Of a stretch of DNA of 64,000 nt, positions 12,642 through 64,000 are shown piece after piece. The notes below the pieces were generated by a model, which did not search any database, had not been told where the DNA came from, and worked only from the letters and a program-made list of their open reading frames with translations. Every line of letters begins with the position of its first letter. Position 1 is the stretch's first letter. Source of the stretch: a bacterium 1xD42-67 (lineage in GTDB: Bacteria > Bacillota > Clostridia > Oscillospirales > Oscillospiraceae); assembly GCA_003612335.1 (NCBI GenBank), contig RAYO01000027.1, positions 1 through 64,000 of the forward strand, given 5' to 3'. The position numbers were made by a program, and so were the translations under genes.

Positions 12642-14321
12642 TCAAATGTAGCTGCCGCTGATGGAGTACAGGGCAATGGTGTCGAAGCCGGGTGTCTTCT
12701 GGATTTTCACCCGGACACCTACCGCCCAGCTCTCGGCGGTCTTGGCCTTGTTGCTGAAAATGTGCTTCCGCCCGCTGTTGGCATCCTCCCAGGCCGGGGA
12801 AGCGTCGTTGAAGTTATTACACACCTGGAGCTGGACGGCGCTGTCAGCGGCCAGATACCGAAGGCTGACCAGGATTTTCTCGGCGGCGGCGCTGGTGTCG
12901 TCCATCTTCCAGTCGAGGTCGATACAGGACACGGACCGGGAGAAGGTAATGGTACGGGTGGCGCTGTTCCCGGCGCTGTCCGTGACCTTCACCTTCATGG
13001 TGTGTTCTCCCTTCAGACCGGCGAACTGGACCTCGGACAGGGCAAAGGTGTACTGCTGGCCCCGGACCGCCTCCTCGATGGTGCGGACCTCCTGGCCGTC
13101 CAGCATCTCCACCACCTCCAGGGTGTCGCCCGTGTCCACATCCCCTACGGTATAGGTAAAGCTGGGCGGGGTGGTCACCACCCCCAGGGCCTGGTCGCTC
13201 CCGCTCACGGTGGGGTCGGCGTTGTGTATCACGGTCCGGGTCAGGCTCGTGGTATATCCACTCCGCCCGCCTCGGCTGTCCTTCGCCAGCACCCTATACG
13301 CTACCGTGTTCATCGCCGTCGTGATATTATCCGTGTACTGTGTGGCGGCCCCGTCGTAGACCTTCGACCAGGCCCCGCCATTGTACTGCCGCTCCAGCTC
13401 ATAACTTACGGCGTCCCCGTCGCTGTCCATGGATGCGGCCCAGCTCACCGCCAGACCCTTCCCGCTCCGCACAGTCTCGGGTACGGTGATACCGGGGGGC
13501 GTGGTGGGGGCGTTATTCCAGATAATCGTATAGTATCCTTCAGAATCTGGGGTATCAGATACCAAGATTTCAGAGGACAAATTCAAAGCCGGACGCACGC
13601 CCCCGCCGCCGCCGTAGGCGCTGTTGTTGTTCAGCGTCCCGTCCGTAATGACGTTGCGGGCGTGGTAGCCATAGCCCGCACTCGGGGACCGCAGCCACCA
13701 CCACCAAGGCTGGGAGGCAGACAAGGAACTGTTGGTGTACTCGGAGTTGCTGACGGCCTGGGTGGTGGGGTAACACTTCCGGGAGTTGTTGTCGCTGAAC
13801 ATCGCCAGGACGGACCCCTCGGCGATGCCATTCTCAGACCCCAGGCCCACCTCGGCCATGGACAACAGGAAGATGCCGTCGGTCAGTGTCTCAGACCCTC
13901 CACCGTCGCAAGAGGGCTTCGCCACGATAAGGGTGGTGGGCAGGATAGCGGCCAGGAACTCGGCGCTGAAGCCGGTCTTAAAGCCCGCCTCGGCGTCGTA
14001 CTCGTTGTAGTTACTCCAGACATTGGCGTTGGAGGGCGGGCGGTCATAGCTGTGCTGCTGGGTATACCAGCCCGTCCCGGCCTTATTCAGCCACTGGCGG
14101 ATGTTGGCGTAGATGTAGCGGTTGTTGCCGTAGCTCTCCCGGCTATTCCCTCCGCCGCTCTCGGTGGCGTCGAAACACTTCAGCGTCAGCATACGCTCGG
14201 CCACGAGGGTGACGGAGCTGGCAGGGAAGCCGGTGTGGTTCTTATCGCCGATGACCCATGCGATAGGCACCCCTTTGTATTTGGTCAGAGGGTCCCTGAC
14301 CTTCGCCTTCACAGGCAGCAT
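12642..14321 (-). CDS. DGR target 1: DUF6273/C-type-lectin-like tail protein with Ig/FnIII repeats
   Basis: 559 residues. Residues 1-250 form a DUF6273 (C-type-lectin/formylglycine-enzyme-like) domain with IRQWLNKAGTGWYT and WWWWLRSP...GVRPALNL. The variable repeat covers residues 210-244, and DGR-altered positions are S214, Y217, H220, I225, S234, G237, G239 and G240. Two Ig/fibronectin-III-like domains follow (about 265-465: GKGLAVSWAASMDSDGD, HTMKVKVTDSAGNSATR), then a beta-rich tail domain. Thus the variable domain is internal rather than C-terminal. The start at 14321 is 1 nt after the reverse-transcriptase stop, which suggests coupled translation; an upstream in-frame ATG at 14417 would overlap that gene by 95 nt. 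Probably a receptor-binding fibre tip or decoration. Confidence 0.85.
   Translation of the reverse strand: MLPVKAKVRDPLTKYKGVPIAWVIGDKNHTGFPASSVTLVAERMLTLKCFDATESGGGNSRESYGNNRYIYANIRQWLNKAGTGWYTQQHSYDRPPSNANVWSNYNEYDAEAGFKTGFSAEFLAAILPTTLIVAKPSCDGGGSETLTDGIFLLSMAEVGLGSENGIAEGSVLAMFSDNNSRKCYPTTQAVSNSEYTNSSLSASQPWWWWLRSPSAGYGYHARNVITDGTLNNNSAYGGGGGVRPALNLSSEILVSDTPDSEGYYTIIWNNAPTTPPGITVPETVRSGKGLAVSWAASMDSDGDAVSYELERQYNGGAWSKVYDGAATQYTDNITTAMNTVAYRVLAKDSRGGRSGYTTSLTRTVIHNADPTVSGSDQALGVVTTPPSFTYTVGDVDTGDTLEVVEMLDGQEVRTIEEAVRGQQYTFALSEVQFAGLKGEHTMKVKVTDSAGNSATRTITFSRSVSCIDLDWKMDDTSAAAEKILVSLRYLAADSAVQLQVCNNFNDASPAWEDANSGRKHIFSNKAKTAESWAVGVRVKIQKTPGFDTIALYSISGSYI
13589..13693 (-). repeat. DGR variable repeat VR1
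   Basis: 105 nt, aligned without gaps to the template repeat at 15576-15680. Ten differences, each at an adenine of the template on the coding strand (for example AAC to GGC twice, AAT to TAT, AGG to GGG). At the 3' end the coding strand reads CCGGCTTTG, against CCGGGTTTG after the template: the expected IMH versus IMH* distinction. Confidence 0.95.
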
Positions 14322-14322
14322 A

Positions 14323-15399
14323 CTAATTTTTTGTGCCACGGGTTTCGCTCCTTCCTTCAGAGAAGATTTTTTGCACTCGCTGGTCAAATTCGAGGACAAG
14401 GTTTCGGCAGTTCCCATGCGAAGCGTGGGCCCGCCAGCTCCTGTAACTATCCTCGATTTCCTTCCGGGTCATCTCCCCGGATTTGTACTTGGCCTCGAAC
14501 GCCCTCAGCTTCCGGGCCATCCTGGACTTGCTGGAGCGGCGCACCTTTCGGATGACCTTTCCGCTGTCTGTCAGGTAGCTGTGGAAGCCGAGGAAGTCCA
14601 GGCCATTCCGCAGGGGGAAGATATTCGTTTTGCCGTTCAGCTCCAGCCCACGGAGGGCCAGCAGCTCGGCAATTTTCCGCCACGCCTCCTGAAGGGCGGC
14701 CTTGTCCTCGCAGATAAGATAGAAGTCGTCCATATACCGCCCATAATATTTGACCCGCAGGACCTCCTTCACGAAATGGTCCAGCGGGTCAAGATACAGC
14801 AGGGCGAATATTTGGCTGCTCTGGTTGCCGATAGGAATACCCACGTTCCCCGGCGTACTGTCGATGATGGCATCCACAAGGGCCAGGGTCCGTGGGTCCT
14901 TCAGGTGCCGGCGCACGTCCTGTTTCAGGACATCATGCCGGATGCTGGCGAAGTAGTGGCGCACGTCAGCCTTCAGCACCCAACCGTCGGCGGCCCCATG
15001 CTTCAGGAAGTATTCCCGCATGAAGCCGCTCAGACGGTCGAGGCCGAACAAGGTCCCTTTCCCCACCTGGGACCCATAGTTGTCCAGGATGAACGGCGCA
15101 GACAGGACAGGGTAAAGAATTTCGTCGCATAGGGAGTGCTGCACGATTTTGTCCTTGAAGCTGTTGGTTTGGACGATGCGCTCCTTCGGTTCATGGACCA
15201 CGAACTCGAAATATCCTCCGGGGCGATATTCCCCGCTTTCAAGCTCCGCCTGGATAAACCGCACAGCCTCCAGCGCATTGGCTTCCACCCTTGCGACGGG
15301 GTTCTTCCACCTCTTGCCCTTCCGGGCCATCCGATAGGCCCGATACAGATTCGAGAAGTCGTAGACGACTTCAAAAGGTGGTTCGACTGTTTTACTCAT
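14323..15399 (-). CDS. DGR reverse transcriptase
   Basis: 358 residues. It copies template-repeat RNA with errors at adenines; the cDNA replaces the variable repeat. Visible motifs: catalytic Asp in LKADVRHYFASI (D145), the DGR-type IGNQSSQ motif at 190-196 (where retron and intron enzymes differ) and YMDD at 222-225 in YGRYMDDFYLI. No maturase, endonuclease or retron-type features. GAGGTG lies just upstream of the ATG. The template repeat is 177 nt upstream and Avd beyond it; the target gene follows immediately. All are on the same strand, giving the order avd-TR-RT-target. Confidence 0.96.
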   Translation of the reverse strand: MSKTVEPPFEVVYDFSNLYRAYRMARKGKRWKNPVARVEANALEAVRFIQAELESGEYRPGGYFEFVVHEPKERIVQTNSFKDKIVQHSLCDEILYPVLSAPFILDNYGSQVGKGTLFGLDRLSGFMREYFLKHGAADGWVLKADVRHYFASIRHDVLKQDVRRHLKDPRTLALVDAIIDSTPGNVGIPIGNQSSQIFALLYLDPLDHFVKEVLRVKYYGRYMDDFYLICEDKAALQEAWRKIAELLALRGLELNGKTNIFPLRNGLDFLGFHSYLTDSGKVIRKVRRSSKSRMARKLRAFEAKYKSGEMTRKEIEDSYRSWRAHASHGNCRNLVLEFDQRVQKIFSEGRSETRGTKN

Positions 15400-15575
15400 T
15401 CACGGCACCTCACCGCTGCTGGCAGCTCCAGACCTCCGCTGTGCGAGGCCCAGGGCGTCAACGGTATGTGTTTGTCCCTTCCCTGTCAGGTCAGGACGGG
15501 ATGTATCTTCGCTTTGATAGTGATAGGCTTCAGCTTTCGCCCTCTCGGGTTACTCAATCGCAGTTTCTACCAAAC

Positions 15576-15680
15576 CCGGACGCACGCCCCTGTTGCCGTT
15601 GTAGGCGTTGTTGTTGTTCAGCGTCCCGTCCGTATTGACGTTGCGGGCGTTGTAGCCATTGCCCGCATTCGGGGACCGCA
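15576..15680 (-). repeat. DGR template repeat (TR), within the non-coding Avd-RT interval
   Basis: 105 nt inside a 333-nt gene-free gap (15400-15732). Read on the minus strand it is rich in AAC/AAT codons (virtual peptide with the runs NAGNGYNARNVNTDG and TLNNNNAYNGNRG), the typical DGR template composition. It matches VR1 over its whole length and VR2 over 73 nt, differing only at adenines. The rest of the gap has no open frame and presumably supplies the structured RNA needed for priming. Confidence 0.96.
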
Positions 15681-15732
15681 CACGGCACACCAAAGGTCAA
15701 GCGCAAACAAGACACACCCCCAGGCCCTCAAA

Positions 15733-16221
15733 TCATCGCCGGGGGTATTGCGGGCCACCCTGCCGGGGAGGGGGCTGTTGGCCCCTGGGAGGTTGTCCCT
15801 GGGCCTGGGCCTTCTTCTCGGCAAGCAGCCGGTTAAACCGCTCGGCGTCCTTCTTCCTCCACGATGCCGCCATGTTCTTGACATCGGTGGTGAGCCCCGT
15901 CCAATACTCACACCGCCTGATGTCCACATAGCCCTGTTCGAGGGCGATGTCCAGCAGGGACAAGAACACTTTGCAGTTCGTCAGGACCTCCTTTTGGAGG
16001 TCAAGCCGCTGTTCCATCTTCTGGCGGTTATCCGGGTAAATCTCATTCGCCGCCAGGATGTCGTGCAGGATTTGAAGGGAGATATTCTGCATACGCTGGC
16101 AGATGGTGAAACGGACCTTCTTCGGGAACAGCTTCGAGTTATTGGTCACGGTCAGGGTATGGTTTACCAGGTCCTTGGCCTTCCCTACGATTGTCAGCTC
16201 CCCTTGCCTCGCAGCAGACAC
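15733..16221 (-). CDS. avd: DGR accessory variability determinant (Avd-like four-helix bundle)
   Basis: 162 residues. Residues 8-125 are all-helical with the Avd pattern (KAKDLVNHTLTVTNNSK, FPKKVRFTICQRMQNISLQI, VDIRRCEYWTGLTTDVKNMAASWRKKD). The C-terminus is a Gln/Pro/Arg-rich basic tail. Avd forms a positively charged pentameric barrel that binds the RT and nucleic acid and is needed for mutagenic homing. It starts at GTG 16221, 10 nt after AGGAGG, and overlaps the upstream gene's 3' end by 83 nt. It lies directly upstream of the TR. Confidence 0.9.
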   Translation of the reverse strand: MSAARQGELTIVGKAKDLVNHTLTVTNNSKLFPKKVRFTICQRMQNISLQILHDILAANEIYPDNRQKMEQRLDLQKEVLTNCKVFLSLLDIALEQGYVDIRRCEYWTGLTTDVKNMAASWRKKDAERFNRLLAEKKAQAQGQPPRGQQPPPRQGGPQYPRR

Positions 16222-41976: not shown

Positions 41977-42273
41977 TCACTCCAGCGGCATCTCGTAGAC
42001 CTTCGGAGGCTCAAAGGCAAACATCAGAGCGTTGCGCTGGGTGGTCCTTGTATGGTGCTTATACTGCCTCGCAATATCCTCCAGCACTTCCATGGCCCTG
42101 GCCTCGCTCTCGTACTCGCCCAAGTTCTCGGTGACATCCTCGGCCAGGGGGAGGGAGGCCAGCACCTTGACGGGCTTCCCCTCCTCGTATCCCCCGTAGT
42201 GGGACGACAGGTGCAGGTCCCCGGCCATCTCCAGATTGAACAGGCATTTCCTGTCCTGTGTCATAATCAGCAT
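41977..42273 (-). CDS. Phage protein, unknown
   Basis: 98 residues from ATG 42273 (GGAGG 8 nt upstream). MTQDRKCLFNLEMAGDLHLSS opening, ARAMEVLEDIARQYKHH helix, FEPPKVYEMP end. It resembles small 'translate-by-value' cell-host-factor-like proteins seen widely in Clostridia phages, but no function is known. Overlaps recU by 7 nt. Confidence 0.6.
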   Translation of the reverse strand: MLIMTQDRKCLFNLEMAGDLHLSSHYGGYEEGKPVKVLASLPLAEDVTENLGEYESEARAMEVLEDIARQYKHHTRTTQRNALMFAFEPPKVYEMPLE

Positions 42274-42800
42274 GGTCGTTTTTCCTCCATTCCCTCCAGG
42301 AACAGCAGCACCCCAGGCCCACCAATGCGGACCCGGCACCGCTCCACATCCTGGGGCGTTATGTATTTGTGGCCGAACAGGTTCTTCATGCCCCGCCAGG
42401 TACTCCACGGGACCCGGAAGAAGTCCAGCCCGGAGAAGGAACACAGGACGAAGGCGTGGCCCCCATAGGAGTGGCACCGCTCCAGCCTCTCGGCCTGGTC
42501 GGGGGTCACACGGTCCTGGTCCATCCTCCCGGTGTCAGTGTGCTTGGCCTCAAAGCAGACAGCGGCCCCGCCCATCAAAAAGCCCTTGAAGTCGGCCTGG
42601 GCCTTCTTGGTGTAGACGGCCACGAACTGCCCGTTCCCCAGGTTCCGCAGGGTCTTCATGGCCTCGGGGGTCTTCTCGATGTCTGCCACATCCCTGTCCC
42701 GGTAGTAGCAGCAGGCGGCCTCGATAAGGCTCTCGAAGTCCTTCCCCTGGTGGCGGTTCAGCTTGTTCCTGTACCTGGCCGCCAGCTCCTTCTCGGTCAT
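42267..42800 (-). CDS. recU: RecU-type Holliday junction resolvase
   Basis: 177 residues from ATG 42800. NRHQGKDFESLIEAACCYYRDRDVADIEKTPEAM, then the nuclease core QADFKGFLMGGAAVCFEAKHTDTGRMDQDRVTPDQAERLERCHSYGG with D and E-x-K ligands. Cuts four-way junctions during recombination and resolves concatemers before packaging. Lies in the replication/recombination-to-late transition. Confidence 0.9.
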   Translation of the reverse strand: MTEKELAARYRNKLNRHQGKDFESLIEAACCYYRDRDVADIEKTPEAMKTLRNLGNGQFVAVYTKKAQADFKGFLMGGAAVCFEAKHTDTGRMDQDRVTPDQAERLERCHSYGGHAFVLCSFSGLDFFRVPWSTWRGMKNLFGHKYITPQDVERCRVRIGGPGVLLFLEGMEEKRPC

Positions 42801-42802
42801 CC

Positions 42803-43192
42803 TCACCGCTTCCCGCCTCCCTTCTTCCCGGCCTCCCCGTAGGTTATCAGGGGCAGCCATTGATACCGCTCCTCGAAGGGGAAGAACTCCTCGCCCTCGG
42901 GGACGATGCGCCGGAGGGCGTCGTCCATCTTCTGCCGGAAGTAGTCGGCCTCGTCCTTCAGGGTCAGGGCGTCGAAATACAGGTCGTACTTGGCTCCCCA
43001 GGCGTCCAGCACCTTTTTGAGGCGGGCATACCCAAACACGTCCTTGCCCATGACCTCGGGGTCGTTCAGGGTGAACAGCAGGGTGTCGGTCATGTACTGC
43101 ACAAAGGTCTGGCGGGTGGCATCCTGAAGAACTCGTTCCCGCTTCTTCTGTTCCTCCTTCTGGCGCTTCAACAGGCCGCTTTGCTTCGCCAT
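42803..43192 (-). CDS. Phage protein, unknown
   Basis: 129 residues from ATG 43192. Basic helical N-terminus (LLKRQKEEQKKRERVLQD) then FVQYMTDTLLFTLNDPEVMGKDVFGYARLKKVLDAWGAKYD. Common between recU and early genes in Clostridia phages; role unknown. Confidence 0.65.
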   Translation of the reverse strand: MAKQSGLLKRQKEEQKKRERVLQDATRQTFVQYMTDTLLFTLNDPEVMGKDVFGYARLKKVLDAWGAKYDLYFDALTLKDEADYFRQKMDDALRRIVPEGEEFFPFEERYQWLPLITYGEAGKKGGGKR

Positions 43193-43214: not shown

Positions 43215-45032
43215 TCACACGGCGACCTTGCTTTCAAACTGCCGCATTGTGGTGATGGCCTCCCCGCACCACTCAGGGAGATTGGCCCGTACCAGGGCCG
43301 TGGCAAAGGGAGGGGGTACGGCGTTCCCACAGCGGGCAACCTGTTTCGACTTCCCGTACTCCTTCCCGGTGAAGTCCCGGTCGATGATGTAGTCATCAGG
43401 GAAGCCGTTGGCCCGGTACAGCTCCCTTGGGGTCAGCATCCGCAAGCCCACATCGGCGATGAAATACCAGGCCCCGCCGATGCGAAACAGGATAACCTCG
43501 TCGGCCTCCAGGCTGTACCCGCAGTATTCGTTCAGGCACTCCCGCACCTGGGGCCACCGCTGGAGGTCTTCCCCAGGGCAGGCCCGGACCACTTTCGTGG
43601 TGACGACCCCGAAGTGGGTCCCGCCGGCGGTGATGGTCTGCACAGGGTCCCCAGCAGGCCCGCCCAGGTTCTCCCCCTTCATCTTCACCAGGTGGGCGGT
43701 CTGAAGGGCGTTATGGTCCACGGACGTGACGGTGGGGAGGGGCTGGGACATCTCAGCCCCCACCACCCCGCCGAAGTATTTGGACAGGCTGGCAACGGTC
43801 AGCCCTTCCCGGTCCTTCGTCGTGATGGTGTGCAGGGGGTCAGTTATTCCCTGGTTTTGCTGCTCTCCGCTGTAATACTTCGTCAGGCTGGCAGCTACCA
43901 GGCCGTAGCGGTTGGAGGCGTCCACAGTCAGCAGGGGTCCGCCCAGCTCCTGGCCCCGCACGTTCTCCCCCTGCTCGGTGTGATACTGGATAAGGCTGGC
44001 ACCCATCAGCATTTGCCCACCACCTCCCCCGGTCCTGGCGGTGTCCACAGGCTCGTCGGGGGTATGCCCGGTGGAGTTCGTCGTATTCGTCACGGTCCAG
44101 GGGGCCATGAAGGGGGAGGCCACCCCGTACCCATGCTTGGCCGTGATGGTCTGGAGGGGGCTGTCCACTTCCTGCCCCCGGAACTCCCCGGCGTGGTTCA
44201 CCACGACCAGGTACGGCCTGGGGGCCTTCAGGACAAACTTGTCGATGCCACGGGCCACCCTCCGCATGGTGTTGGGCCGGAGGGGGCGCTGGGCGCTCAG
44301 GCCATACTTGGCCTTGACTTCCTCCCTGGTGTCGAAGATAGAGGGAGTGGGCAGGCTCCAGTCGATGACCTCAGCAGCAGAGCGCCAGGGCTTCAGCAAG
44401 CCGGCCTTGACCTCGGGGCTGTCAGCAGGGGCGTGGGTTGGGGCAGGCCACACGATAGGCCGCCCATCCCTCCGGGCAATCAGGAAAAACCGCTTGCGGG
44501 TCGTCGGCGCTCCATAGTCAGCCGCTACCAGCTCCCGCCACTCCACAGCATAGCCCAGGGCCTCCAGTTGGGAGATGAACTGCCGGAAGGTTTGTCCCGT
44601 CTTCGACTTCACGGGGCGCCCCCGGCGGACGGGTCCCCAGGTCTGGAACTCCTCGACGTTCTCCAGGATTATGACCCTGGGGCTGACGGTTCCAGCCCAC
44701 CGAAGGACAATCCAGGCCAGCCCCCGGATGTTCTTGTCCACGGGCTTCCCGCCTTTGGCCTTGGAGAAGTGCTTGCAATCGGGGGAGGCCCACAGCAGGC
44801 CCACGCTCCGGCCCCGGCAGACCTCCTCGGGGTCCACATCCCACACGCTGGCCTGGAAATGCTGGGTGTGCGGGTGGTTTGTGCGGTGCATCAGGATAGC
44901 ATCGGGGTCGTGGTTGATGGCAATATCCACCACCCGGCCCGCCGCCAGCTCGATGCCGGTGGAAGCTCCGCCGCCCCCGGCGAAGCTGTCCACGATGATT
45001 TCATCCAGTAGATTGATCTGGCCGTAGCTCAT
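43215..45032 (-). CDS. C5-cytosine DNA methyltransferase with variant SPDC motif and internal repeats
   Basis: 605 residues. Motif I DSFAGGGGASTG (15-26), catalytic loop WASPDCKHFSKAKGG with C86 (usual motif is PC preceded by P; here PDC), motif VI LENVEEF (ENV 124-126), motif VIII TTRKRFFLIARR, and motif X near GNAVPPPFATALV. Between motifs VIII and IX lie about five copies of a ~45-residue unit (PLQTITAKHGYG, PLLTVDASNRYG, PLHTITTKDREG, PLPTVTSVDHNA, PVQTITAGGTHFG), presumably the target-recognition region. Could protect phage DNA or prime it for further modification. Confidence 0.88.
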   Translation of the reverse strand: MSYGQINLLDEIIVDSFAGGGGASTGIELAAGRVVDIAINHDPDAILMHRTNHPHTQHFQASVWDVDPEEVCRGRSVGLLWASPDCKHFSKAKGGKPVDKNIRGLAWIVLRWAGTVSPRVIILENVEEFQTWGPVRRGRPVKSKTGQTFRQFISQLEALGYAVEWRELVAADYGAPTTRKRFFLIARRDGRPIVWPAPTHAPADSPEVKAGLLKPWRSAAEVIDWSLPTPSIFDTREEVKAKYGLSAQRPLRPNTMRRVARGIDKFVLKAPRPYLVVVNHAGEFRGQEVDSPLQTITAKHGYGVASPFMAPWTVTNTTNSTGHTPDEPVDTARTGGGGGQMLMGASLIQYHTEQGENVRGQELGGPLLTVDASNRYGLVAASLTKYYSGEQQNQGITDPLHTITTKDREGLTVASLSKYFGGVVGAEMSQPLPTVTSVDHNALQTAHLVKMKGENLGGPAGDPVQTITAGGTHFGVVTTKVVRACPGEDLQRWPQVRECLNEYCGYSLEADEVILFRIGGAWYFIADVGLRMLTPRELYRANGFPDDYIIDRDFTGKEYGKSKQVARCGNAVPPPFATALVRANLPEWCGEAITTMRQFESKVAV

Positions 45033-46949: not shown

Positions 46950-47105
46950 CTACCAGCATCCGGCGGCCAGGATAGCAAGGGCCAGCAGGCCGGCGGCGGT
47001 CACCCTCGCCCCGTTGTTCTTCTCGGTGATGGTCTTGGCTCCGAAGGCATACACAAAGCTGATGAAGGTCACAAGGCCCACGAAGGCGGTCAGGAACACT
47101 CGCAC
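46950..47105 (-). CDS. 51-residue membrane protein
   Basis: From GTG 47105 (GGAGG 10 nt upstream) to TAG 46950. Two hydrophobic helices: VFLTAFVGLVTFISFVYAFGA and VTAAGLLALAILAAGCW. Overlaps the end of the DGR target 2 gene. Unknown; two-helix small proteins in early regions may be superinfection-exclusion or toxin-like factors. Confidence 0.6.
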   Translation of the reverse strand: MRVFLTAFVGLVTFISFVYAFGAKTITEKNNGARVTAAGLLALAILAAGCW

Positions 47106-48043
47106 GTCTCGCCGCCCTCCTTCCGGGGGAAGTCCAGGCGGGGGAGGCCCACAAGGTCGGCCAGGTGGTCCAGCTTCTCGGCCTCGGCCTCGCTGTTCTC
47201 CCCGAAGATGACCTCCAGTTGGTTGAGCATGATACCCACGTCGGCCCGCTCCTCGGCGATAGCCTTCAGCAGCTCGTCCCGGCGGCCCTGGTCGAAGTTC
47301 TTATACCGCAGCCACTTCAGCAGGGCCTTGGACAGCTCCCCCAGCTCCTCGACGGCAATCAGCATCTGGGCGTCCTCGCCGAACTTCTCCACGGCGGCTT
47401 CGTACAGGGCCGTTTCCTTCTGCTCAGGGGTCAGCTCGTCCTTGTCCTCGTCCACCCCCTCGACAGATACCAAGAGGCCAGATTTGAGATACAAAGCCGG
47501 ACGCACGCCCCTGACGCCGATGTAGGCGTAGTCGTTGCTCAGCGTCCCGTCCGTATTGACGACGCGGGCGAAAGAACTTCCCCCACCCGACGGGGTGCTG
47601 TCCGGGGTGATAAGCCAACGCCAGGTGCCGGGAGGGTCCATGTAGATGTCCCGGTTGGCCTTATACTCGTCGGCAGTCAGCAGGGAAACGGTGTCCGTAC
47701 AGGTGCCGTAGTCCTTCAGGCCATCATCGGCGGTCAGGTCCCGCAGGAAGGTGACGGCGGCGTCCTTCAGCTCGGGGAAGCTCTCCAGCAGCTTGGGCAG
47801 ATAGTCCTCGTGCAGATACTTCCGCAGGCTGGCGGTCCTCCAGTCGTTGCACCCGCCGTTGTCGAAGGCGGCCTTGCACAGGTCCTCGGCGGCCTCGACG
47901 AGGGTGTAGCCCTCCGGGGACTGGGCCTCCCCGCACTCAGGGAAGTGGCGGACGACCACGAACTCGACCTTCTTGTCCTCGATGAAGTTCTCCAGGAAGA
48001 AGTGGACCCCCCGGCCCAGGTCATTGAGCTTGACTTTTTTCAT
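47090..48043 (-). CDS. DGR target 2: DUF6273-like variable domain fused to MazG-like domain
   Basis: 317 residues. Residues 1-195 resemble DUF6273/C-type-lectin-like (NDWRTASLRKYLHEDYLPKLLESF, LLTADEYKANRD, GTWRWLITPD, GVRPALYLKSGLL). The variable repeat covers residues 159-182, with diversified positions V161, S169, D171, Y172, I175 and V177. Residues 210-310 carry MazG NTP-pyrophosphohydrolase motifs EELGE (232-236) and EERAD (264-268), which bind Mg. The start has GGAGGAATAATCACC upstream. It lies among early genes, 32 kb from the DGR, so the diversified product is probably intracellular or enzymatic rather than virion-tip. Confidence 0.85.
   Translation of the reverse strand: MKKVKLNDLGRGVHFFLENFIEDKKVEFVVVRHFPECGEAQSPEGYTLVEAAEDLCKAAFDNGGCNDWRTASLRKYLHEDYLPKLLESFPELKDAAVTFLRDLTADDGLKDYGTCTDTVSLLTADEYKANRDIYMDPPGTWRWLITPDSTPSGGGSSFARVVNTDGTLSNDYAYIGVRGVRPALYLKSGLLVSVEGVDEDKDELTPEQKETALYEAAVEKFGEDAQMLIAVEELGELSKALLKWLRYKNFDQGRRDELLKAIAEERADVGIMLNQLEVIFGENSEAEAEKLDHLADLVGLPRLDFPRKEGGETCECS
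47497..47569 (-). repeat. DGR variable repeat VR2 (remote)
   Basis: 73 nt aligned without gaps to the 3' part of the template repeat; eight differences, all at template adenines (AAC to GTC twice, AGC, GAC, TAC, ATC). The 3' edge reads CCGGCTTTG, as in VR1. Upstream of 47569 the similarity stops, so the repeat is shorter than VR1. Confidence 0.92.
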
Positions 48044-48758: not shown

Positions 48759-49436
48759 TCAGCCCTCCCTATACGGGTCCGGCAGGGTCCAGGCCCACTC
48801 GCCGGCAGCCTCTCCCACGGGGAAGGTGGTGGTGAAGTGGTTCTCCCACCCGTCCCCCTCGAAGAACAGATACTCGGCAGGGAGGACCCGGCCCACATTC
48901 TCCTGTCCGGCCTTCTCAGCGGCCCACCGCTCCAGGACATCCTCGGCCAGCTCTATGTACTCCTGGACCACGGGCCTGTCCTCGCTCCAGGCGAATTGGT
49001 GGGGGGCGGTCACCACCTCCCGGATGCTGTCCCCATACCTCCCGGCGTCCAGGCGGTTGAGGACACACCACACGACGGCGGCCTTCTTCATGTCCCCCAG
49101 GCAGATGTCAGCCTCGGCATATATCGTCTGGGCCAGCAATACCAGGTCGTCCTCGGTCCAGGTTTCAGGCCCCGGCGTGGGGGACACGTCCCCTGGCCGT
49201 TTCTCAGGCTCGTACAGGCCGAGTGTCACGTCGGGGGGTACAGATACCACCAACACCCCATCCGGCCCCTGTGCGCCGCCCTGGGGCGCTCCCTGGGCCA
49301 TCCTCCGCCCCATGTTGAACAGGACCCCCGTATATACCAGGGCCACGGCCACAAGCAGGACCACAGCCCAGCCCATAGGCCAGGGGTGGCGCACCCCCTT
49401 CTGGAGGCGCTTTCCCCCTCTCGTTTTACCATCCAT
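48759..49436 (-). CDS. Membrane-anchored SleB-like cell-wall hydrolase
   Basis: 225 residues from ATG 49436 (GGAG 8 nt upstream). Basic start, one transmembrane helix (WAVVLLVAVALVYTGVLF, about 22-40), linker, then a Hydrolase_2/SleB domain: LLAQTIYAEADICLGDMKKAAVVWCVLNRLDAG, SIREVVTAPHQFAWS, catalytic Glu in YAEA. Its location in the early/replication region rather than the lysis module is unusual; possibly an infection-stage or exclusion function. Confidence 0.82.
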   Translation of the reverse strand: MDGKTRGGKRLQKGVRHPWPMGWAVVLLVAVALVYTGVLFNMGRRMAQGAPQGGAQGPDGVLVVSVPPDVTLGLYEPEKRPGDVSPTPGPETWTEDDLVLLAQTIYAEADICLGDMKKAAVVWCVLNRLDAGRYGDSIREVVTAPHQFAWSEDRPVVQEYIELAEDVLERWAAEKAGQENVGRVLPAEYLFFEGDGWENHFTTTFPVGEAAGEWAWTLPDPYREG

Positions 49437-50145
49437 TTTTCCGGCTCCTTTCCTCGTCATACTCCCACGCCTGCTGAAGGGTCGTTATCCCTCTTGCGGC
49501 GAGTGTTCTCATAGTTCCGAATATGTAGTTCCAATTCATGGCCCCGGCCTTCGACGCCTGCTCAAAGGCGTATGCCAGCAGCTCCTTTCGCCTCTCGGGG
49601 AAAACTATGGTAACGTCCCGGCCTTCTCCCTCTCGTTCGCATATCAGCTCGAACACCCTCTGTTCGTCCCGCTTGTCCGGCTTGTGGTCGGGCCAGTAGG
49701 CCCCCAGCAGCTCCTTGGTGATCTGCTTCAGCTCCCTGGCAACGTCCTCGTTCCAGCCGAAGTATCGTGTCAGGTCATCCACCCCATCGGCCATATAGTA
49801 CGGGACGCCATCCGGGAGGTCGGGGGGGACACCACCCTTGGCGGCGTCCTTCCCCCATACACTACTTGGCGGTATCAGGGTGTACTCGCTCGGCTTCCCC
49901 TTCACCCCCTGCTTTACCTTCAGCAGGCCGGCAGCCTCCAGCTCACGGCGGACAGCAACAAATGTATTTCTCGATGCAACTCCTATCAGCTCCATCGCCT
50001 CCTGGTTCGTCAGGCGCAGGGGGAAGCGCCAGAAATTTCTATTTGCCCGGTGCATCAGTCTGTACCATAGGAGCTGTGCGTCTGGGGGAAGGGGCCGTTC
50101 TTCCATAGCATCCCCGAAAGCGTTGATTTCGTTGAGGTACTGCAA
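49426..50145 (-). CDS. Replication-initiation-type protein (HTH plus DnaD-like)
   Basis: 239 residues. Winged-helix N-terminus: QLLWYRLMHRANRNFWRFPLRLTNQEAMELIGVASRNTFVAVRRELEAAGLLKVKQG. The C-terminal helix GAMNWNYIFGTMRTLAARGITTLQQAWEYDEE fits the DnaD 'YxxxI' end region. It probably loads the host helicase at the phage origin, perhaps inside its own gene; no iterons were recognised. Confidence 0.82.
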   Translation of the reverse strand: MQYLNEINAFGDAMEERPLPPDAQLLWYRLMHRANRNFWRFPLRLTNQEAMELIGVASRNTFVAVRRELEAAGLLKVKQGVKGKPSEYTLIPPSSVWGKDAAKGGVPPDLPDGVPYYMADGVDDLTRYFGWNEDVARELKQITKELLGAYWPDHKPDKRDEQRVFELICEREGEGRDVTIVFPERRKELLAYAFEQASKAGAMNWNYIFGTMRTLAARGITTLQQAWEYDEERSRKNGW

Positions 50146-50194: not shown

Positions 50195-51079
50195 TCAGCC
50201 GCCCAACTTCTGCTGGCCGTCTCCTTCCTCCAGCTTTTCGCCCTCCGGCTCCCCCTCCTTCTCGGCGGGGACAGCCTCCCCGGTTTCCGGGTCCACATCA
50301 TAGTCGGCCTCGGGGTACGTCCCCTGGACCTCGTACATATCGGCGCTGACCTCATTCTTTACCATCTCGTCCTGGGCCACGGCCCGCAGGAACTCACTCT
50401 TGAGGGGGGCATACTTCAGCACCCGTTTGAGGACGGTCTTCTTCGCCATCTCCTCGAAGTTCGTCTGCCAGGGGCCGCTCCCATAGCTCTGGGAGAACTT
50501 CTTGGCGTGGTTCCTCACATCGTCGATGGACATGACCTCATAGCCATAGCCGCCGTCCTTGGTCTTGAACATGGCGTAGACATACACAGCCTGCCCCCGG
50601 TCCTTCATAGCCGGAACGTGCTTTAACGTAGGCTCCAGACCGAAGGAATAGGAGAACTCGTCGTTCTCATAGACCACCTGGGCCATGATGGTGGACACAT
50701 CCCCGGAGCGGTAGGCCAGGTCGATAAGCCCCTTATACCCAAGCTGGAACTGGCACTCGTTAGCCCCGACCTTCCGGCTCCAGTAGGGAATGAGGTACGC
50801 CTGCCCCAAGGGGGTGTTCGGCTCCACACCGAGCTGGGCGGCGGTCATCATAGCCCCCAGGAAGGATGGCGGGGTGCAGCTCTGGAGCTTGGGGTTGGTA
50901 GACAGGGCGGACAGGGTAATGCGGGTGAACCGCTCCGGGGTCATCACAGCAGGCAGAGCGGCCTTGATAGCGGGCGCCATCTGCTTGATGTACTGCTGGA
51001 TGGTGGGCTGCTTCCCCTCCTGGGTGCGGGCGGCGGCGGCCTCCTGGGTCCGCCTCTGGATAGTGTTGTTGTTCGCCAT
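50195..51079 (-). CDS. recT: RecT single-strand annealing protein
   Basis: 294 residues. MAPAIKAALPAVMTPERFTRITLSALSTNPKLQSCTPPSFLGAMMTAAQLGVEPNTPLGQAYLIPY and CQFQLGYKGLIDLAYRSGDVSTIMAQVVYENDEFSYSFG are diagnostic. The acidic C-terminal tail is typical. Pairs with the YqaJ exonuclease just upstream (2-nt gap). Confidence 0.95.
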   Translation of the reverse strand: MANNNTIQRRTQEAAAARTQEGKQPTIQQYIKQMAPAIKAALPAVMTPERFTRITLSALSTNPKLQSCTPPSFLGAMMTAAQLGVEPNTPLGQAYLIPYWSRKVGANECQFQLGYKGLIDLAYRSGDVSTIMAQVVYENDEFSYSFGLEPTLKHVPAMKDRGQAVYVYAMFKTKDGGYGYEVMSIDDVRNHAKKFSQSYGSGPWQTNFEEMAKKTVLKRVLKYAPLKSEFLRAVAQDEMVKNEVSADMYEVQGTYPEADYDVDPETGEAVPAEKEGEPEGEKLEEGDGQQKLGG

Positions 51080-51081
51080 AG

Positions 51082-52041
51082 TTAAACGGCCTCCTTTTCC
51101 TCAATCTCAATTTTGAAGGGTCTGGAATTGCTGACCTTGTAGTAACGGCTCAGGTCCAGCTCGGGGTGTTCCTTGGCGAACATAGCCGCCTGGAAGGTCT
51201 TCCGCTCCTGGGGCTTCCAGGATACCCGGAAGCCGGTACAGGTCCCCCGCTGGGCCTCTCCCAGGTCCATCTTGATGATGTTCTTGATTTCCTCCATGCG
51301 GTCAACAATGGCCTCGCCCTGCTTCCCCAGCTCTGCCCACTCTTTCAGCAGGCCCTCACGCCCGAACAGCTCCACCTCGCCGGCCTCAGCAGCACCCTGG
51401 AAAATGGTCTGAAGGGCTTCCCCGGTTGCCTCGGACCCATCCACAGGCGGCGGGGTCCCATCCTGCACATGGCCCCAGAACTCCAGCTCGGCCCCCATCA
51501 GGGCGTCGATTTCGGCCTGGTCCCTCTCCAGGGTGTAGCAGAACACCCCCCGGCCATAGACCATAACGCACAGATACCACCGCTCGGCCCCGGTCACGGC
51601 CATATAGTGGACACACTGGGCGTAATACTGCTCGGGGAACTCTCCCCCCTGGAACTGCCGGACATTCAGCGTGGAGGTGGTCTTGCACTCCAGGCCGGCG
51701 TTCTCCCCGACCACCCACCTGTCGATGTTGGCGTGGGCAAAGGGGTACAGGTCGTTATACAGGATGGCGTTGACCCGCTCCACCTTCTTCCCGGTAGCCT
51801 CCCCCCACCGCTCGGCGACGTACTGCTCCAGGTCCCGGCCCATCCTCATGGCCTCCGTCTCGGGCTTGTCCTCCAGCTTCCCCAGCTTCTCGGCCCACAC
51901 GGACAGCGGGCTGGCCCACTTGGACAGGCCCACGATGGCGGACGCCTCAGACCCTCCAATGGTCTGCCGCCGGACCTCCAGCCACTCAGCCCTGGGCATC
52001 CCCACAGTGGACACCCGCCGGACGTTCTTCGGTCTTTTCAT
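51082..52041 (-). CDS. YqaJ-like 5'-3' exonuclease
   Basis: 319 residues. WLEVRRQTIGGSEASAIVGLSKWASPLSVWAEKLG at the start, then the core AHANIDRWV, GLECKTTS (E-x-K), QYYAQCVHYMAVTGAERWYLCVMVYG (Q-x-x-x-Y). Degrades one strand so RecT can anneal. A C-terminal helical region follows (LLKEWAELGKQGEAIVDRMEEIKNIIK). Confidence 0.93.
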   Translation of the reverse strand: MKRPKNVRRVSTVGMPRAEWLEVRRQTIGGSEASAIVGLSKWASPLSVWAEKLGKLEDKPETEAMRMGRDLEQYVAERWGEATGKKVERVNAILYNDLYPFAHANIDRWVVGENAGLECKTTSTLNVRQFQGGEFPEQYYAQCVHYMAVTGAERWYLCVMVYGRGVFCYTLERDQAEIDALMGAELEFWGHVQDGTPPPVDGSEATGEALQTIFQGAAEAGEVELFGREGLLKEWAELGKQGEAIVDRMEEIKNIIKMDLGEAQRGTCTGFRVSWKPQERKTFQAAMFAKEHPELDLSRYYKVSNSRPFKIEIEEKEAV

Positions 52042-53369: not shown

Positions 53370-54452
53370 TCAGGCCCCGGTGACTTCCTTAGCGTCGTAC
53401 AGGGCGTTCCTGGTGTACTGGCGCTGCCACGCCCCCTGGCTCGGCGCCCATTTGAAAGCCCGATGCCTCAGTTTCGACCGCATTTCCTCGTCCGGCTTCT
53501 CCTCGAAAAAAATCTGCACCCGGTTCAGGTCAGTGTTGATGACCACCTCGCCGCCCTCGAAGGTCCAGCCCTCCGGGGCCTCCTCGGTCTGGCGCTTCTC
53601 CAGCTCCTTGACACGGGCCTCATACCGCCGGATGTTGGCGTTGTTGTTAGACAGCGCATAGGCGGGATAGCCCACTCGCCCGCAGTAGTCAGGCGCCCGA
53701 AGCTCCTTGATTTCCTCAGAGGAAAAGCCCAGCTCGCACAGCCGGCGGTCGCCCTCCTCGGTGTCCTTCAGGCGGATAGCGGCGTTGGCCGCCTTCATCA
53801 GCTCCTGGTGCTTCTTCAGGCGCTCGACTTCCTTCCTCAGCTTCTCCAGGGCGTTCGGGTCATCAGAGCTGATGCCGCCGGTCCCGACGGACCGCATCCG
53901 CTCCAGCAGCCCCATGATTTCGCTGTACTCCTTCGCATTTCTCTCCAGGGCGGCGACCTGTTTCTCCTTCTTCCTCACAGGGAAGTTGCCAGCGCCGGAC
54001 ACCAAGACAGAGGGACACATACACCCGATGCGGCTCTCGGCGTTCATATTCTCAGCCAGCCGCTTGGAGAAGGAGGCCAGCAGCCCGTCGATTTTCTCAT
54101 GGTACATGGGGTCGGTCTTCTTCTTCAGGCAGTAGGCCAGGAAGGAGGCCCTGTCCACCTCCAGGCGGTACGCCCACGTCTTCTGGCCCTCGGGATAGTC
54201 CCGGAAGGACATCATGTTGTGGGCAGTCCTGGCGGTAGCCTCGTCGATAGCGTGGTAGACGGGGGACGGGCCAGCGACCAGGCCAAGGGCCGCCACGGTG
54301 TCATCGGGCAGGGCCTCGGTGAACTCCCTGTACCCGTAGAAGGTATAGCCCTTGAAGGCCGCCCCGTTCTTCCCGTAGCTCTCAGTCAGGGCCAGGGTCG
54401 GCAGCTCCAGTTCGGCAGGCATCTCGGGGGTGGTTATGTAGTAGCGATACAT
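53370..54452 (-). CDS. DUF3560-like/polyvalent-type phage protein
   Basis: 360 residues from ATG 54452 (leader GAAAGGAGAAATAACC). MNAESRIGCMCPSVLVSGAGNFPVRKKEKQVAALERN, a helical middle (ALEKLRKEVERLKKHQELM), and a C-terminal GGEVVINTDLNRVQIFFEEKPDEEMRSKLRHRAFKWAPSQGAWQRQ unit widespread in phage and plasmid polyvalent proteins. Such proteins often enter with DNA to counter defence, but role here is inferred. Confidence 0.6.
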   Translation of the reverse strand: MYRYYITTPEMPAELELPTLALTESYGKNGAAFKGYTFYGYREFTEALPDDTVAALGLVAGPSPVYHAIDEATARTAHNMMSFRDYPEGQKTWAYRLEVDRASFLAYCLKKKTDPMYHEKIDGLLASFSKRLAENMNAESRIGCMCPSVLVSGAGNFPVRKKEKQVAALERNAKEYSEIMGLLERMRSVGTGGISSDDPNALEKLRKEVERLKKHQELMKAANAAIRLKDTEEGDRRLCELGFSSEEIKELRAPDYCGRVGYPAYALSNNNANIRRYEARVKELEKRQTEEAPEGWTFEGGEVVINTDLNRVQIFFEEKPDEEMRSKLRHRAFKWAPSQGAWQRQYTRNALYDAKEVTGA

Positions 54453-54466
54453 GGTTATTTCTCCTT

Positions 54467-54778
54467 TCAAATCTTTCCGGCTTCCCGGCGTTGTCTCACC
54501 TCGAATGGCTCCACTTTCTTCCCGGCGAAGCAGTAGCCGCAGTAGACCCAATAATCGGGTCCGTCAAGGCTCACTTTCTTTTCAAAGGTCATGTGCGTAT
54601 AGGCAGGCATCCCGGTGTCCGGGTCAATAGCCCTGCTGTAAGCCTCTCCAGCCTGCCGGAGGTCATCCCGGTATGTAGTAGGCAGCAGCTCCAGGACGAT
54701 ACGGTCAACGGTCGCCTCGTCCACCACGTCCCCAGGCTTCAGCTTTCGGCCCATCATCTGAACGGGCAGGGGTAACAT
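54467..54778 (-). CDS. Phage protein, unknown
   Basis: 103 residues. GDVVDEATVDRIVLELLPTTYRDD, DYWVYCGYCFAG with two cysteines. Overlaps the upstream gene by 25 nt. Confidence 0.6.
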   Translation of the reverse strand: MLPLPVQMMGRKLKPGDVVDEATVDRIVLELLPTTYRDDLRQAGEAYSRAIDPDTGMPAYTHMTFEKKVSLDGPDYWVYCGYCFAGKKVEPFEVRQRREAGKI

Positions 54779-59592: not shown

Positions 59593-60207
59593 ATGGGCCT
59601 ATTTTCCAAGAAATGCTCAGTATGTGGGCGCACGCTACCAGACAAGAGGAAATACAAGGGAGTGTGCGACCCGTGCGGCATGGATTATCACACACTTACA
59701 AAGCAAATGAGTGATACGCTATCTTTGGTAGAAACAGCAAAGACGGCGACAACGGGGTACAATAGGTGCCTGCTTGGGATGCGCCTTTCTAAACGGCTCG
59801 CCCCCTTTGCAAAGGCTGGTTTGTACTCCTTCCCAGACGGAAGCATGGATGACCAAATCAGGCATTTTGAAGATATGGCGATAAAGTATGTCCAGCAAAT
59901 CAGGAAGGAGAACGAGGGCAAAAAATACGATAGGAAGGTAGGGGTCGCCCCATTCTCCCATTACAAAAAGCTACAAAACGCAAAGGCCAAACAGCCGGAT
60001 GGAGGGTGCAAGGCTTGCTGGGAAGTCGCTCCACTCAATAAGGCGGGCTACTGTTTGGAGTGCCTTGCCAGAGGTACATCTATCTCAGGAGGAGAAATTG
60101 CCGAATATTCACTTACGCATGACATAACGGGCCTATCCGGGGACGAGATAAGAAAAGCTGCAACCCGTTGGAAATTGGGAAGGAGCGTCCTTAATGCCAG
60201 CCTATAA
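59593..60207 (+). CDS. Zinc-ribbon cargo protein next to the integrase
   Basis: 204 residues. N-terminal CSVCGRTLPDKRKYKGVCDPCG zinc ribbon (residues 8-29), helical middle, and second cysteine set CKACW...YCLEC near 145-160. GC is visibly lower than in the phage around it. It lies on the plus strand between repressor and integrase, overlapping the integrase start by 14 nt; this is a typical site for lysogenic-conversion genes. Possible defence or exclusion protein; unproven. Confidence 0.65.
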   Translation: MGLFSKKCSVCGRTLPDKRKYKGVCDPCGMDYHTLTKQMSDTLSLVETAKTATTGYNRCLLGMRLSKRLAPFAKAGLYSFPDGSMDDQIRHFEDMAIKYVQQIRKENEGKKYDRKVGVAPFSHYKKLQNAKAKQPDGGCKACWEVAPLNKAGYCLECLARGTSISGGEIAEYSLTHDITGLSGDEIRKAATRWKLGRSVLNASL

Positions 60208-61333
60208 AGACCAGCAGCGGGGGACCTGGTACGCCTCGTTCTACTACACCGACTGGCAGGGGGCCAGGAAACTGAAGAAGAAGCGGGGCTTTGCCAGGAA
60301 GAAGGACGCAGAGCAGTACGAACGGGAATTTCTCCACAAAGAGGCGGGCAACTGCGACATGACCTTCGCCTCGATGGTAGACATCTACACAGACGACATG
60401 AGGGGCAGGCTCCGGGAAAGCACTATGGAAACGAAGGAGAACATTATCGAGAAGTGGGTCCTGCCCTTCTTCGGCTCCAGGAAGCTGGCAGAGATAACCC
60501 CCTCGATGGTCCGCCGCTGGCAATCAGAGGTGTTGGCCTCGGACATCTCCCCCACCTACGCAAAGACGATACACAATCAGGTGTCGGCCATCTTCAACTA
60601 CGCCTGCCGGTATTACGGCCTGAAGGACAACCCGGCAAGGCAGGCCGGCAGCATGGGCGAAAAGAGGGCCAACACAAAGCACTTTTGGACCCCGGAGAAC
60701 TTTGAGATGTTTATCGGCTTCGTTCCTCAGTATCCGGCCAGGGTAGGACTGGCGACCCTCTTTTGGACCGGCCTCCGCATAGGGGAACTGCTGGCCCTCA
60801 CCCCGGATGACGTTGACCTCCAGGCCGGGACCATCTCCGTGTCGAAGTCCTTCCAGCTCATAAAGGGGCGGGAGGTCGTCACAGCTCCAAAGACGAAGAA
60901 GTCCCGCCGGGTGGTCCCCCTCCCCTCCAGGATGGTCGAGGCCCTGAAGACCTACGAACAGAGCTTCTATGACCTCCAGCCCACGGACCGGCTGTTCCCC
61001 TTCACGAAGTCCTATTTCCACAAGCAGATGGACGCAGGGTGCCAAGCCTCCAAGATGGAGAAGATACGCCTGCACGACCTCAGACATTCCCACGCCTCGA
61101 TGCTCATACACATGGGCGTACCCATCCTCCTGGTGTCCGAGCGCCTGGGCCATGAAAACGTCGAGACGACGCTTCAGACCTACGGCCACCTGTACCCGGC
61201 TCAGACTACAGCGGCCTTGGAGAAGATGGACCAGATGATGACCGGGGACCTGGGAGGGCCAAAGAAGGCGCAGGGGAATAGTGCCGCCCAGGAAGGGGAG
61301 GAAGGCCCGGAGGAAGGCCAGGGCCTCCAGTGA
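60194..61333 (+). CDS. int: Phage tyrosine integrase
   Basis: 379 residues. N-terminal AP2-like arm-binding domain (GTWYASFYYTDWQGARKLKKKRGFARKKDAEQYEREF), SAM-like core-binding domain (about 58-150) and catalytic domain with R195 (TGLRIGEL), H294/R297 (HDLRHSH), H320 (LGHENVETT) and Y330. Catalyses insertion and excision at the adhesin gene; attachment site lies within 100 nt of its stop. Acidic/Gln tail after 350. Confidence 0.95.
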   Translation: MPAYKDQQRGTWYASFYYTDWQGARKLKKKRGFARKKDAEQYEREFLHKEAGNCDMTFASMVDIYTDDMRGRLRESTMETKENIIEKWVLPFFGSRKLAEITPSMVRRWQSEVLASDISPTYAKTIHNQVSAIFNYACRYYGLKDNPARQAGSMGEKRANTKHFWTPENFEMFIGFVPQYPARVGLATLFWTGLRIGELLALTPDDVDLQAGTISVSKSFQLIKGREVVTAPKTKKSRRVVPLPSRMVEALKTYEQSFYDLQPTDRLFPFTKSYFHKQMDAGCQASKMEKIRLHDLRHSHASMLIHMGVPILLVSERLGHENVETTLQTYGHLYPAQTTAALEKMDQMMTGDLGGPKKAQGNSAAQEGEEGPEEGQGLQ

Positions 61334-63600: not shown

Positions 63601-64000
63601 CCTGTGAATCCTGGCAATCCCAGCACCCCCGGCGAACCGGGTACTCCCAGTGAACCGGGCACCCCCAGCGAACCGGGTACTCCCGGCGAACCGGGCACTC
63701 CCAGCGAACCGGGCACCCCCAGCGAACCGGGCACCCCCAGCGAACCGGGTACTCCCGGCGAACCGGGCACTCCCAGCGAACCGGGCACTCCCAGCGAACC
63801 GGGCACCCCCAGCGAACCGGGTACTCCCGGCGAACCAGGCACCCCCAGCGAACCGGGTACACCCGGCGAACCGGGCACCCCCAGCGAACCGGGTACTCCC
63901 GGCGAACCGGGCACCCCCAGCGAACCGGGCACCCCCAGCGAACCAGGCATCCCCGGAGAACCAAGTACACCCGGCGAATCTGTTACTCCCGAATCCCCCG
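63601..64000 (+). repeat. Proline-rich 18-nt repeat array (GTPSEP/GTPGEP)
   Basis: About 20 in-frame copies of an 18-nt unit encoding GTP(S/G)EP, degenerate mainly in the third-base and Ser/Gly position. Typical rigid cell-wall-spanning stalk of sortase-anchored proteins. The array reaches the window end. Confidence 0.9.

Follow-up and report, generated by a model that had tools for sequence, protein, structure and literature searches.

Does a phage direct hypermutation only at proteins of its virion, or also at proteins with a role inside the cell? The question is raised by a prophage of a gut bacterium found in the window (the whole 64,000-nt stretch of contig RAYO01000027.1 analysed here), whose DGR appears to serve two genes, one adjoining the reverse transcriptase (RT) and the other lying among early genes and carrying a MazG-like domain. 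C-lectin DGR targets are usually virion proteins. The DGR of Bordetella phage BPP-1 comprises RT, Avd, a template repeat (TR), and a variable repeat (VR), with A-specific mutagenic homing into a C-lectin domain, features that have counterparts in the window, putative ones in the case of Avd and the lectin fold; unlike the window, it has a single target, Mtd, adjoining the RT. The tail fibre is the commonest DGR target according to the accessible text of PMC7981956.

As judged by the RVT_1 (1.5e-13) and phrog_1423 (reverse transcriptase, 1.3e-131) profiles, the 358-aa product of 14323..15399 (minus strand) is a DGR-type RT; the remaining RVT_1 matches above the cut-off in the genome are frames of 611-952 aa, and the one match below it is a 200-aa frame. 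The TR lies at about 15571..15680 (minus), and 15733..16221 (minus) encodes a 162-aa bAvd-like accessory protein, whose match to PF22296 (E 1.3e-8, 35.8 bits) is below the curated cut-off of 40. The first target, TGT1 (12642..14417, minus), contains DUF6273 and Ig-like domains and is of the tentaclin or Hoc-like decoration type (phrog_10993); its variable repeat, VR1, occupies 13584..13693 (minus). A repeat search of the window yielded three copies, at 13584-13709, 15571-15696, and 47492-47617. Over 126 nt, VR1 differs from the template at 18 positions, ten of them at A; of the other mismatches, seven lie within the initial 16 nt, outside the 110-nt match, and the remaining one is the boundary change of G to C. 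Just 3' of the VR, the template has G and both variable repeats have C, a candidate IMH/IMH* boundary difference.

The third copy lies in TGT2, a single ORF for 317 aa at 47090..48043 (minus), as delimited correctly in the initial annotation, with an ATG preceded by GAGGAGG. Its repeat, VR2 (73 nt, 47497..47569, minus), carries eight substitutions relative to the template, all of them where the template has A (8/8), and, given 21 A in the matched 73 nt, the probability of such a distribution by chance is 1.5e-5. This confirms the original observation of a remote match 32 kb away with every substitution at an adenine, and a template near the RT goes together with A-specific VR mismatches. A longer blastn alignment of 79 nt has nine mismatches, eight at A; the ninth, a change of G to C immediately past the 3' end of the 73 nt, also occurs in VR1, as a difference at the template/target boundary would. 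The residue changes, all from Asn (N161V, N169S, N171D, N172Y, N175I, and N177V), agree with the series V, S, D, Y, I, V listed previously.

TGT2 consists of an N-terminal DUF6273/phrog_9958 domain (residues about 1-197) and a C-terminal MazG-like domain (about 206-299). DUF6273 is recognized by PF19789 with a score of 25.2 bits (cut-off 23.5; E 1.7e-5), and the phrog_9958 profile spans residues 2-223 (E 1.2e-54), which places the protein in this family. There is no strongly hydrophobic 19-residue stretch in the protein, and a PDB sequence search with the whole of it gave no match. In the structure model, residues 1-195 mostly have pLDDT about 90 (blocks up to residue 190 average 73-98), while the MazG part is mostly below 55, though helical. 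The best Foldseek match of the model in PDB is 9qa6 (8.2e-7), with C-type lectins appearing only at E about 1; in BFVD, it matches DUF6273 proteins down to 8.6e-9, and the accessible text of PMC10743442 assigns a lectin fold to DUF6273. The changed VR2 residues map to predicted strands 158-162 and 168-172 and the next turn. From this strand pattern and the hairpin described for relatives in the same text, we infer that they lie on one face.

Since TGT1 and TGT2 both encode DUF6273, the match between TGT2 and the template could in principle reflect old homology of the domain with no DGR targeting. DNA identity outside the A sites speaks against this, and so does natural variation. The IMG/VR record L001 is identical to the window over the 20,951 bases compared, so it provides no strain variation; related phages do, and comparison of near-identical gene pairs does not depend on the A-favouring score used below to select segments. 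Between L105 and L112, 16/25 template A positions differ, compared to 0/63 other template bases and 0/710 positions in the rest of the gene, which is the A-site variation among related phages predicted at the outset. The respective counts are 12/22, 0/54, and 0/572 for L114-L119, and 9/18, 0/55, and 0/809 for L109-L111 (three gap columns, with the template borrowed from nd12). In the other eight pairs with a template, several of which share members and hence are not independent, the A positions account for 10-17 differences, the remaining template bases for 0-2, and the sequence outside the repeat for 6-35. In two pairs without a template to compare, the differences also cluster: 12 of 13 differing sites in L106-L110 and 14 of 34 in L069-L083 fall within 52 bases. 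Measured against the template of the window, the VRs of the window and L098 (see below) differ at non-A sites too. The near-identical pairs, which vary largely at A sites, rule out old homology as an explanation, leaving it a negligible probability, and the variation in relatives supports active mutagenic homing as read from these gene comparisons.

The second question is where TGT2 belongs in the phage genome. The prophage genes are mostly on the minus strand. After the integrase (60194-61333, plus) come the primase of the early module (53370..54551), a RecE-like exonuclease (51082..52041), a RecT-like annealing protein (50195..51079), a DnaD-like helicase loader (49426..50145), TGT2, a DUF5131 protein, a DNA methyltransferase (43215..45032), and a RusA-type Holliday junction resolvase (42267..42860), all those with coordinates after the integrase being on the minus strand. 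Past RusA are the terminase, portal, tape measure, and baseplate genes, with the DGR at the far end. Hence the location among early genes, noted from the start, holds: TGT2 is in the early/replication module, ∼32 kb from the template, and not in the late structural module as would be the case for a Mtd-type gene. Also in the early module, between DnaD and TGT2, the region 48759-49460 encodes a cell wall hydrolase-like domain (PF07486, 1.2e-8), and the window end past the integrase gene (63623-63978) carries a tandem array of 18-nt units with a higher period of 36 nt (copy number 9.9, matches 89%).

Relatives show the same setting. We surveyed up to eight same-strand ORFs of at least 80 aa per locus, 140 ORFs at 18 loci. 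The commonest families were replication initiation, methyltransferases, DNA-binding proteins, RecT, SSB, RusA, and YqaJ, and further ones included transposase/HTH_38 (6), transglycosylase SLT (3), and cell wall hydrolase (2). Families of capsid, portal, or tail proteins were absent from the best 25 of 165 PHROG and the best 25 of 35 Pfam neighbour families. Single neighbour ORFs of relatives' TGT2 matched the Acb2/Tad1 hairpin domain (E 6.4e-21), RtcB, and dATP/dGTP diphosphohydrolase; going by these matches, conflict and nucleotide genes are close to TGT2 in relatives.

What, then, is the C-terminal part? It is assigned by PHROG profile to phrog_2245, a family of phage pyrophosphohydrolases (residues 208-291, E 2.6e-16); a Pfam search for MazG in TGT2 gave no match, and matches to PDB profiles were weak, with a nucleotide pyrophosphohydrolase, 5ie9, ranked second (E 0.025). 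The combination EExxE...ExxD, which we take to be the signature motif of MazG-like NTP pyrophosphohydrolases, is kept in TGT2 (EExxE at 232-236, ExxD at 265-268) as in the phrog_2245 proteins; the difference is that here the MazG-like part is joined to a hypervariable lectin-like domain. Thus, the union of DUF6273 with MazG motifs proposed initially is real and in frame (PF19789/phrog_9958 with phrog_2245), and there is no start codon with a well-spaced ribosome site at the junction in the window.

The search for other DUF6273-MazG fusions, suggested together with that proposal, returned two, L098 and L226, and both EExxE and ExxD are kept without change throughout an alignment of nine sequences and in all three fusions. 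The L098 fusion (77% identical) comes from a 30.8-kb viral record that contains no more of an RT than a scrap: in the early region, 33 residues encoded at L098:17826-17924 resemble the start of the DGR RT (48% identity at its N-terminus) and end at TGA, likely a DGR remnant by this similarity. The L226 fusion (53% identical) is in prophage G517:C19, whose RT is 71% identical and lies 30 kb from TGT2, with VR2 mismatches 8/8 at A. The order there is primase, DnaD, TGT2-MazG, phrog_2045, RusA, terminase, and then portal, tape measure, baseplate, RT, TGT1, and integrase. The window's RecE, RecT, phrog_30550, and methyltransferase have no match in this prophage at 1e-6; in L098 and G517, as in the window, TGT2 lies between genes for DnaD and RusA. 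Codon 215 of L226 is an ATG preceded at a distance of nine bases by GGAG, and a separate MazG product may therefore be made from this gene; in L098, AAGGAG immediately abuts an ATG at codon 211.

Codon comparisons demonstrate purifying selection on the intact MazG signature of TGT2. Compared to L098, the MazG part has a dN/dS of 0.43, the sequence ahead of the VR one of 0.31, and the 23 codons of the VR one of 1.2; compared to L226, the respective values are 0.26, 0.50, and 0.68.

MazG is not the only partner of this variable domain. L122 carries a C-terminal dUTPase (PF00692, 1.3e-30) on the same domain with no start codon at the junction. An RT search in the L122 record gave no match, and the template borrowed from L089 fits poorly (77/95 with A sites free), so the DGR status of L122 is unproven. 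The N-terminal partners are DUF3310 (L087), Lar restriction alleviation (L088), and DUF7768/deoxyribosyltransferase (L084). In L087, L088, L117, and L084, upstream early genes run stop-free and in frame into the target (junction codons 86, 83, 86, and 118, respectively); each of the four has a Shine-Dalgarno-ATG at its junction, which weakens the case for the DUF3310, Lar, and DUF7768 fusions, and judging from the reading frames, dual products, fused and free, are possible for these genes.

Position and partners bear on the most obvious alternative, that TGT2 is a virion component, a Mtd-like receptor-binding or decoration protein, whose gene is outside the late module by chance and whose MazG part is an oligomerisation helix bundle. 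The C-lectin fold and DGR targeting are indeed typical of receptor binders, and such a role has been proposed for nd4_tgt2 and nd12_tgt2 in PMC10743442, where, in the accessible text, the homologues are called probable Mtd-like receptor binders. According to the same text, however, the beta-prism, the presumed attachment of Mtd, is absent from both nd4 and nd12 proteins. Because of the early-module position of the gene in the window and relatives, and because TGT2-type domains are fused to dUTPase and MazG, we regard a virion role as unlikely.

Remote second targets recur beyond these fusions. Among the matches listed, a TGT2-type gene and a template occur on one contig or record in 19 cases, the window and 18 others (G017, G085, L114, L120, L105, L118, L103, L084, L087, nd4 (L062), nd12 (L064), Lelie (L063), L226, L224, L223, L220, L222, and L233; in L084 and L087 the two appear to share a contig). 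TGT2 is closest to the RT in nd4, at about 10 kb, and farthest from it in L105, at 35.5 kb. Over the 19 records, 200/204 mismatches are at template A (200/205 with the window's 79-nt alignment), a figure favourable by construction because the segments were picked by a score penalising A mismatches least, and those in G017 and G085 by a filter of at least 75% mismatches at A. As a control, reversed genes yielded no segment in 13/13 pairs, nine of them among the 19. With a profile search (alignment A4, 1e-10), 31/400 sampled genomes of the host's family matched, including matches to TGT1-type and other DUF6273 proteins. An RT search in 47 genomes or records gave a match in 34, and the template comparison covered 30 target-RT pairs, its figures again referring to the matches listed.

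Several candidates were left out of the 19. No template was found near the own RT of L101, and no segment was found for L081 against L143. For L081 against L177, apparently the same genome, the top-scoring segment is the first-target gene, and the second one is a template with 13/13 at A on another contig. L090 against L166 has just 8/13 at A, with L166 on another contig, and L082, L088, and L089 have 14/14, 11/11, and 12/12 at A, respectively, but the RT is on another contig. In G052, G176, L092, L124, L125, L123, L128, and L131, real DUF6273 targets adjoin the RT; these represent a different cassette type and were not counted as remote.

Some of these genomes have features of their own. Two small DUF6273 targets are close by the RT in G052:C38, G176:C38, L092, L124, and L125, with both VRs A-biased in G052 and G176, and G052 also encodes a protein with a MazG-like stretch about 4.4 kb away. 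G255 has several phrog_9958-type targets and several DGR-like RTs in one genome; a template on its 194,555-base contig corresponds to a target on a 97,524-base contig with 11/11 A sites, which may reflect either a split assembly or action across prophages, as far as the contigs indicate.

A possible clue to homing into TGT2 is the stretch following the repeat. The post-VR2 stretch (47460..47496, minus), containing CTTGGTATC, is common to TGT1, where it follows VR1, and is little changed in L098: at TGT2 codons 183-205, four nucleotides differ, with dS of 0.06 compared to 0.30 before the VR. There is no special conservation relative to L226 (dS 0.56 vs 0.90). It is the sole site in the TGT2 gene of TTG (two) and GTA (one) codons, which across 26 prophage genes account for 6.6% of the Leu and 6.5% of the Val codons, respectively. 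A motif related to CTTGGTATC was found in 18/52 genes scanned, and no inverted repeats of at least 7 nt were found within 30 nt directly after VR1 and VR2. The stretch is a plausible candidate for a homing cis element on these codon and motif data.

The shared motif, together with the DUF6273 fold common to TGT1 and TGT2, admits a further reading, in which the DGR hits TGT2 through sequence homology alone, with little benefit and the variation tolerated. Homing could spill over in this way, and dN/dS in the VR relative to L226 does not exceed 1. On the other hand, the close template match has been kept though TGT2 domains are only about 30% identical, whereas an abandoned target would drift. 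We consider mere spill-over very improbable.

The explanation that we favour as reasonably probable, taken as a whole, is that one DGR serves two genes and that TGT2 is an intracellular adjustable binder. The RT, with its bAvd-like partner, would copy the template RNA with errors at A, and the cDNA would replace the repeat in TGT1, an adhesin-like Ig-domain protein of the late, virion type, and likewise, in trans, that in TGT2. As the mutated TGT2 codons are predicted to lie on a beta-hairpin of a C-lectin-like domain, homing would alter the binding of this protein, whose site of action is most likely intracellular, probably in the cytoplasm and early. Through its variable domain, TGT2 would either guide the MazG-like part, presumably a nucleotide pyrophosphohydrolase, to some partner or block this partner; more generally, the attached MazG or dUTPase may be delivered to, or controlled by, an intracellular partner. 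This partner is probably a changing protein of the host or of a rival element, e.g. a defence component. A variant of such a role is that, within a lysogen or during infection, TGT2 is directed at other phages, by superinfection exclusion or by binding proteins of incoming or rival phages, and not at host factors. An early-module gene and a diversified binder, fit for a changing set of rivals, agree with that, and the Acb2/Tad1-family ORF in one relative means that conflict genes occur nearby; however, a PADLOC scan of five proteins gave no match to known defence proteins, and we hold an anti-phage role to be distinctly improbable.

Part of this picture has precedents, and the claim of the initial annotation that such a target would be a new use of DGR mutagenesis was too strong, since Quimbyvirus (Benler et al., 2021, PMC8008677) has already been described as having a second DGR target that is non-structural and lies next to genes related to defence, and DUF6273 second targets have been described in nd4, nd12, Lelie, and CP11. 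Going by the accessible description, with which alone the comparison was made, Quimbyvirus is a Bacteroides phage with the RT in three overlapping frames, and its second target is not described there as DUF6273 or enzyme-fused. The second targets of nd4 and nd12 are, like TGT2, of the DUF6273 family (PMC10743442), and nd4_tgt2 is 42% identical to TGT2 residues 1-222. A-specific variation has been published for 39 nd4-like and 13 nd12-like two-target genomes, and a DUF3310-like motif has been reported in nd12_tgt2 (PMC10743442). Unlike TGT2, these proteins are without the MazG part, and the authors propose receptor binding; the accessible text of that paper contains no discussion of their replication-module position. 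Lelie and CP11, like the window, have two VRs with both targets being DUF6273 (PMC11792537); in the text available, no enzyme fusion is reported for their small targets, whose function is called not entirely clear. Lelie orf58, which matches the template and lies 14 kb from the Lelie RT, appears to be the small target of that paper. In the accessible passages of papers pairing DGRs with MazG or dUTPase, largely non-subscription ones, we found no fusion of a DGR target to either, and the literature examined, in the portions accessible, contains no mention of the replication-module place of the DUF6273 second-target family. Hence, as far as these sources go, a non-structural second DGR target and DUF6273 second targets are already known, and what is unusual here is the fusion and the wider pattern.

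These observations suggest that some phages diversify proteins acting inside the cell. More tentatively, and as a possibility that we would not yet rely upon, phrog_9958 may represent widespread intracellular antibody-like variable proteins of clostridial phages, with a DGR-diversified lectin-like domain produced along with the replication proteins, alone or joined to MazG or dUTPase, and aimed at changing defence factors of hosts or rivals, with the same template also diversifying a virion adhesin. If so, phage hypermutation would be used inside the cell and not just for receptor switching, and second DUF6273 targets now taken as receptor binders would need reinterpretation. The ligands of non-structural DGR targets would then become directly testable, as there is a defined family with known variable residues, and two fusion types carry an attached enzyme with an assayable activity. 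Finally, surveys limited to the region adjoining the RT miss remote targets such as TGT2.
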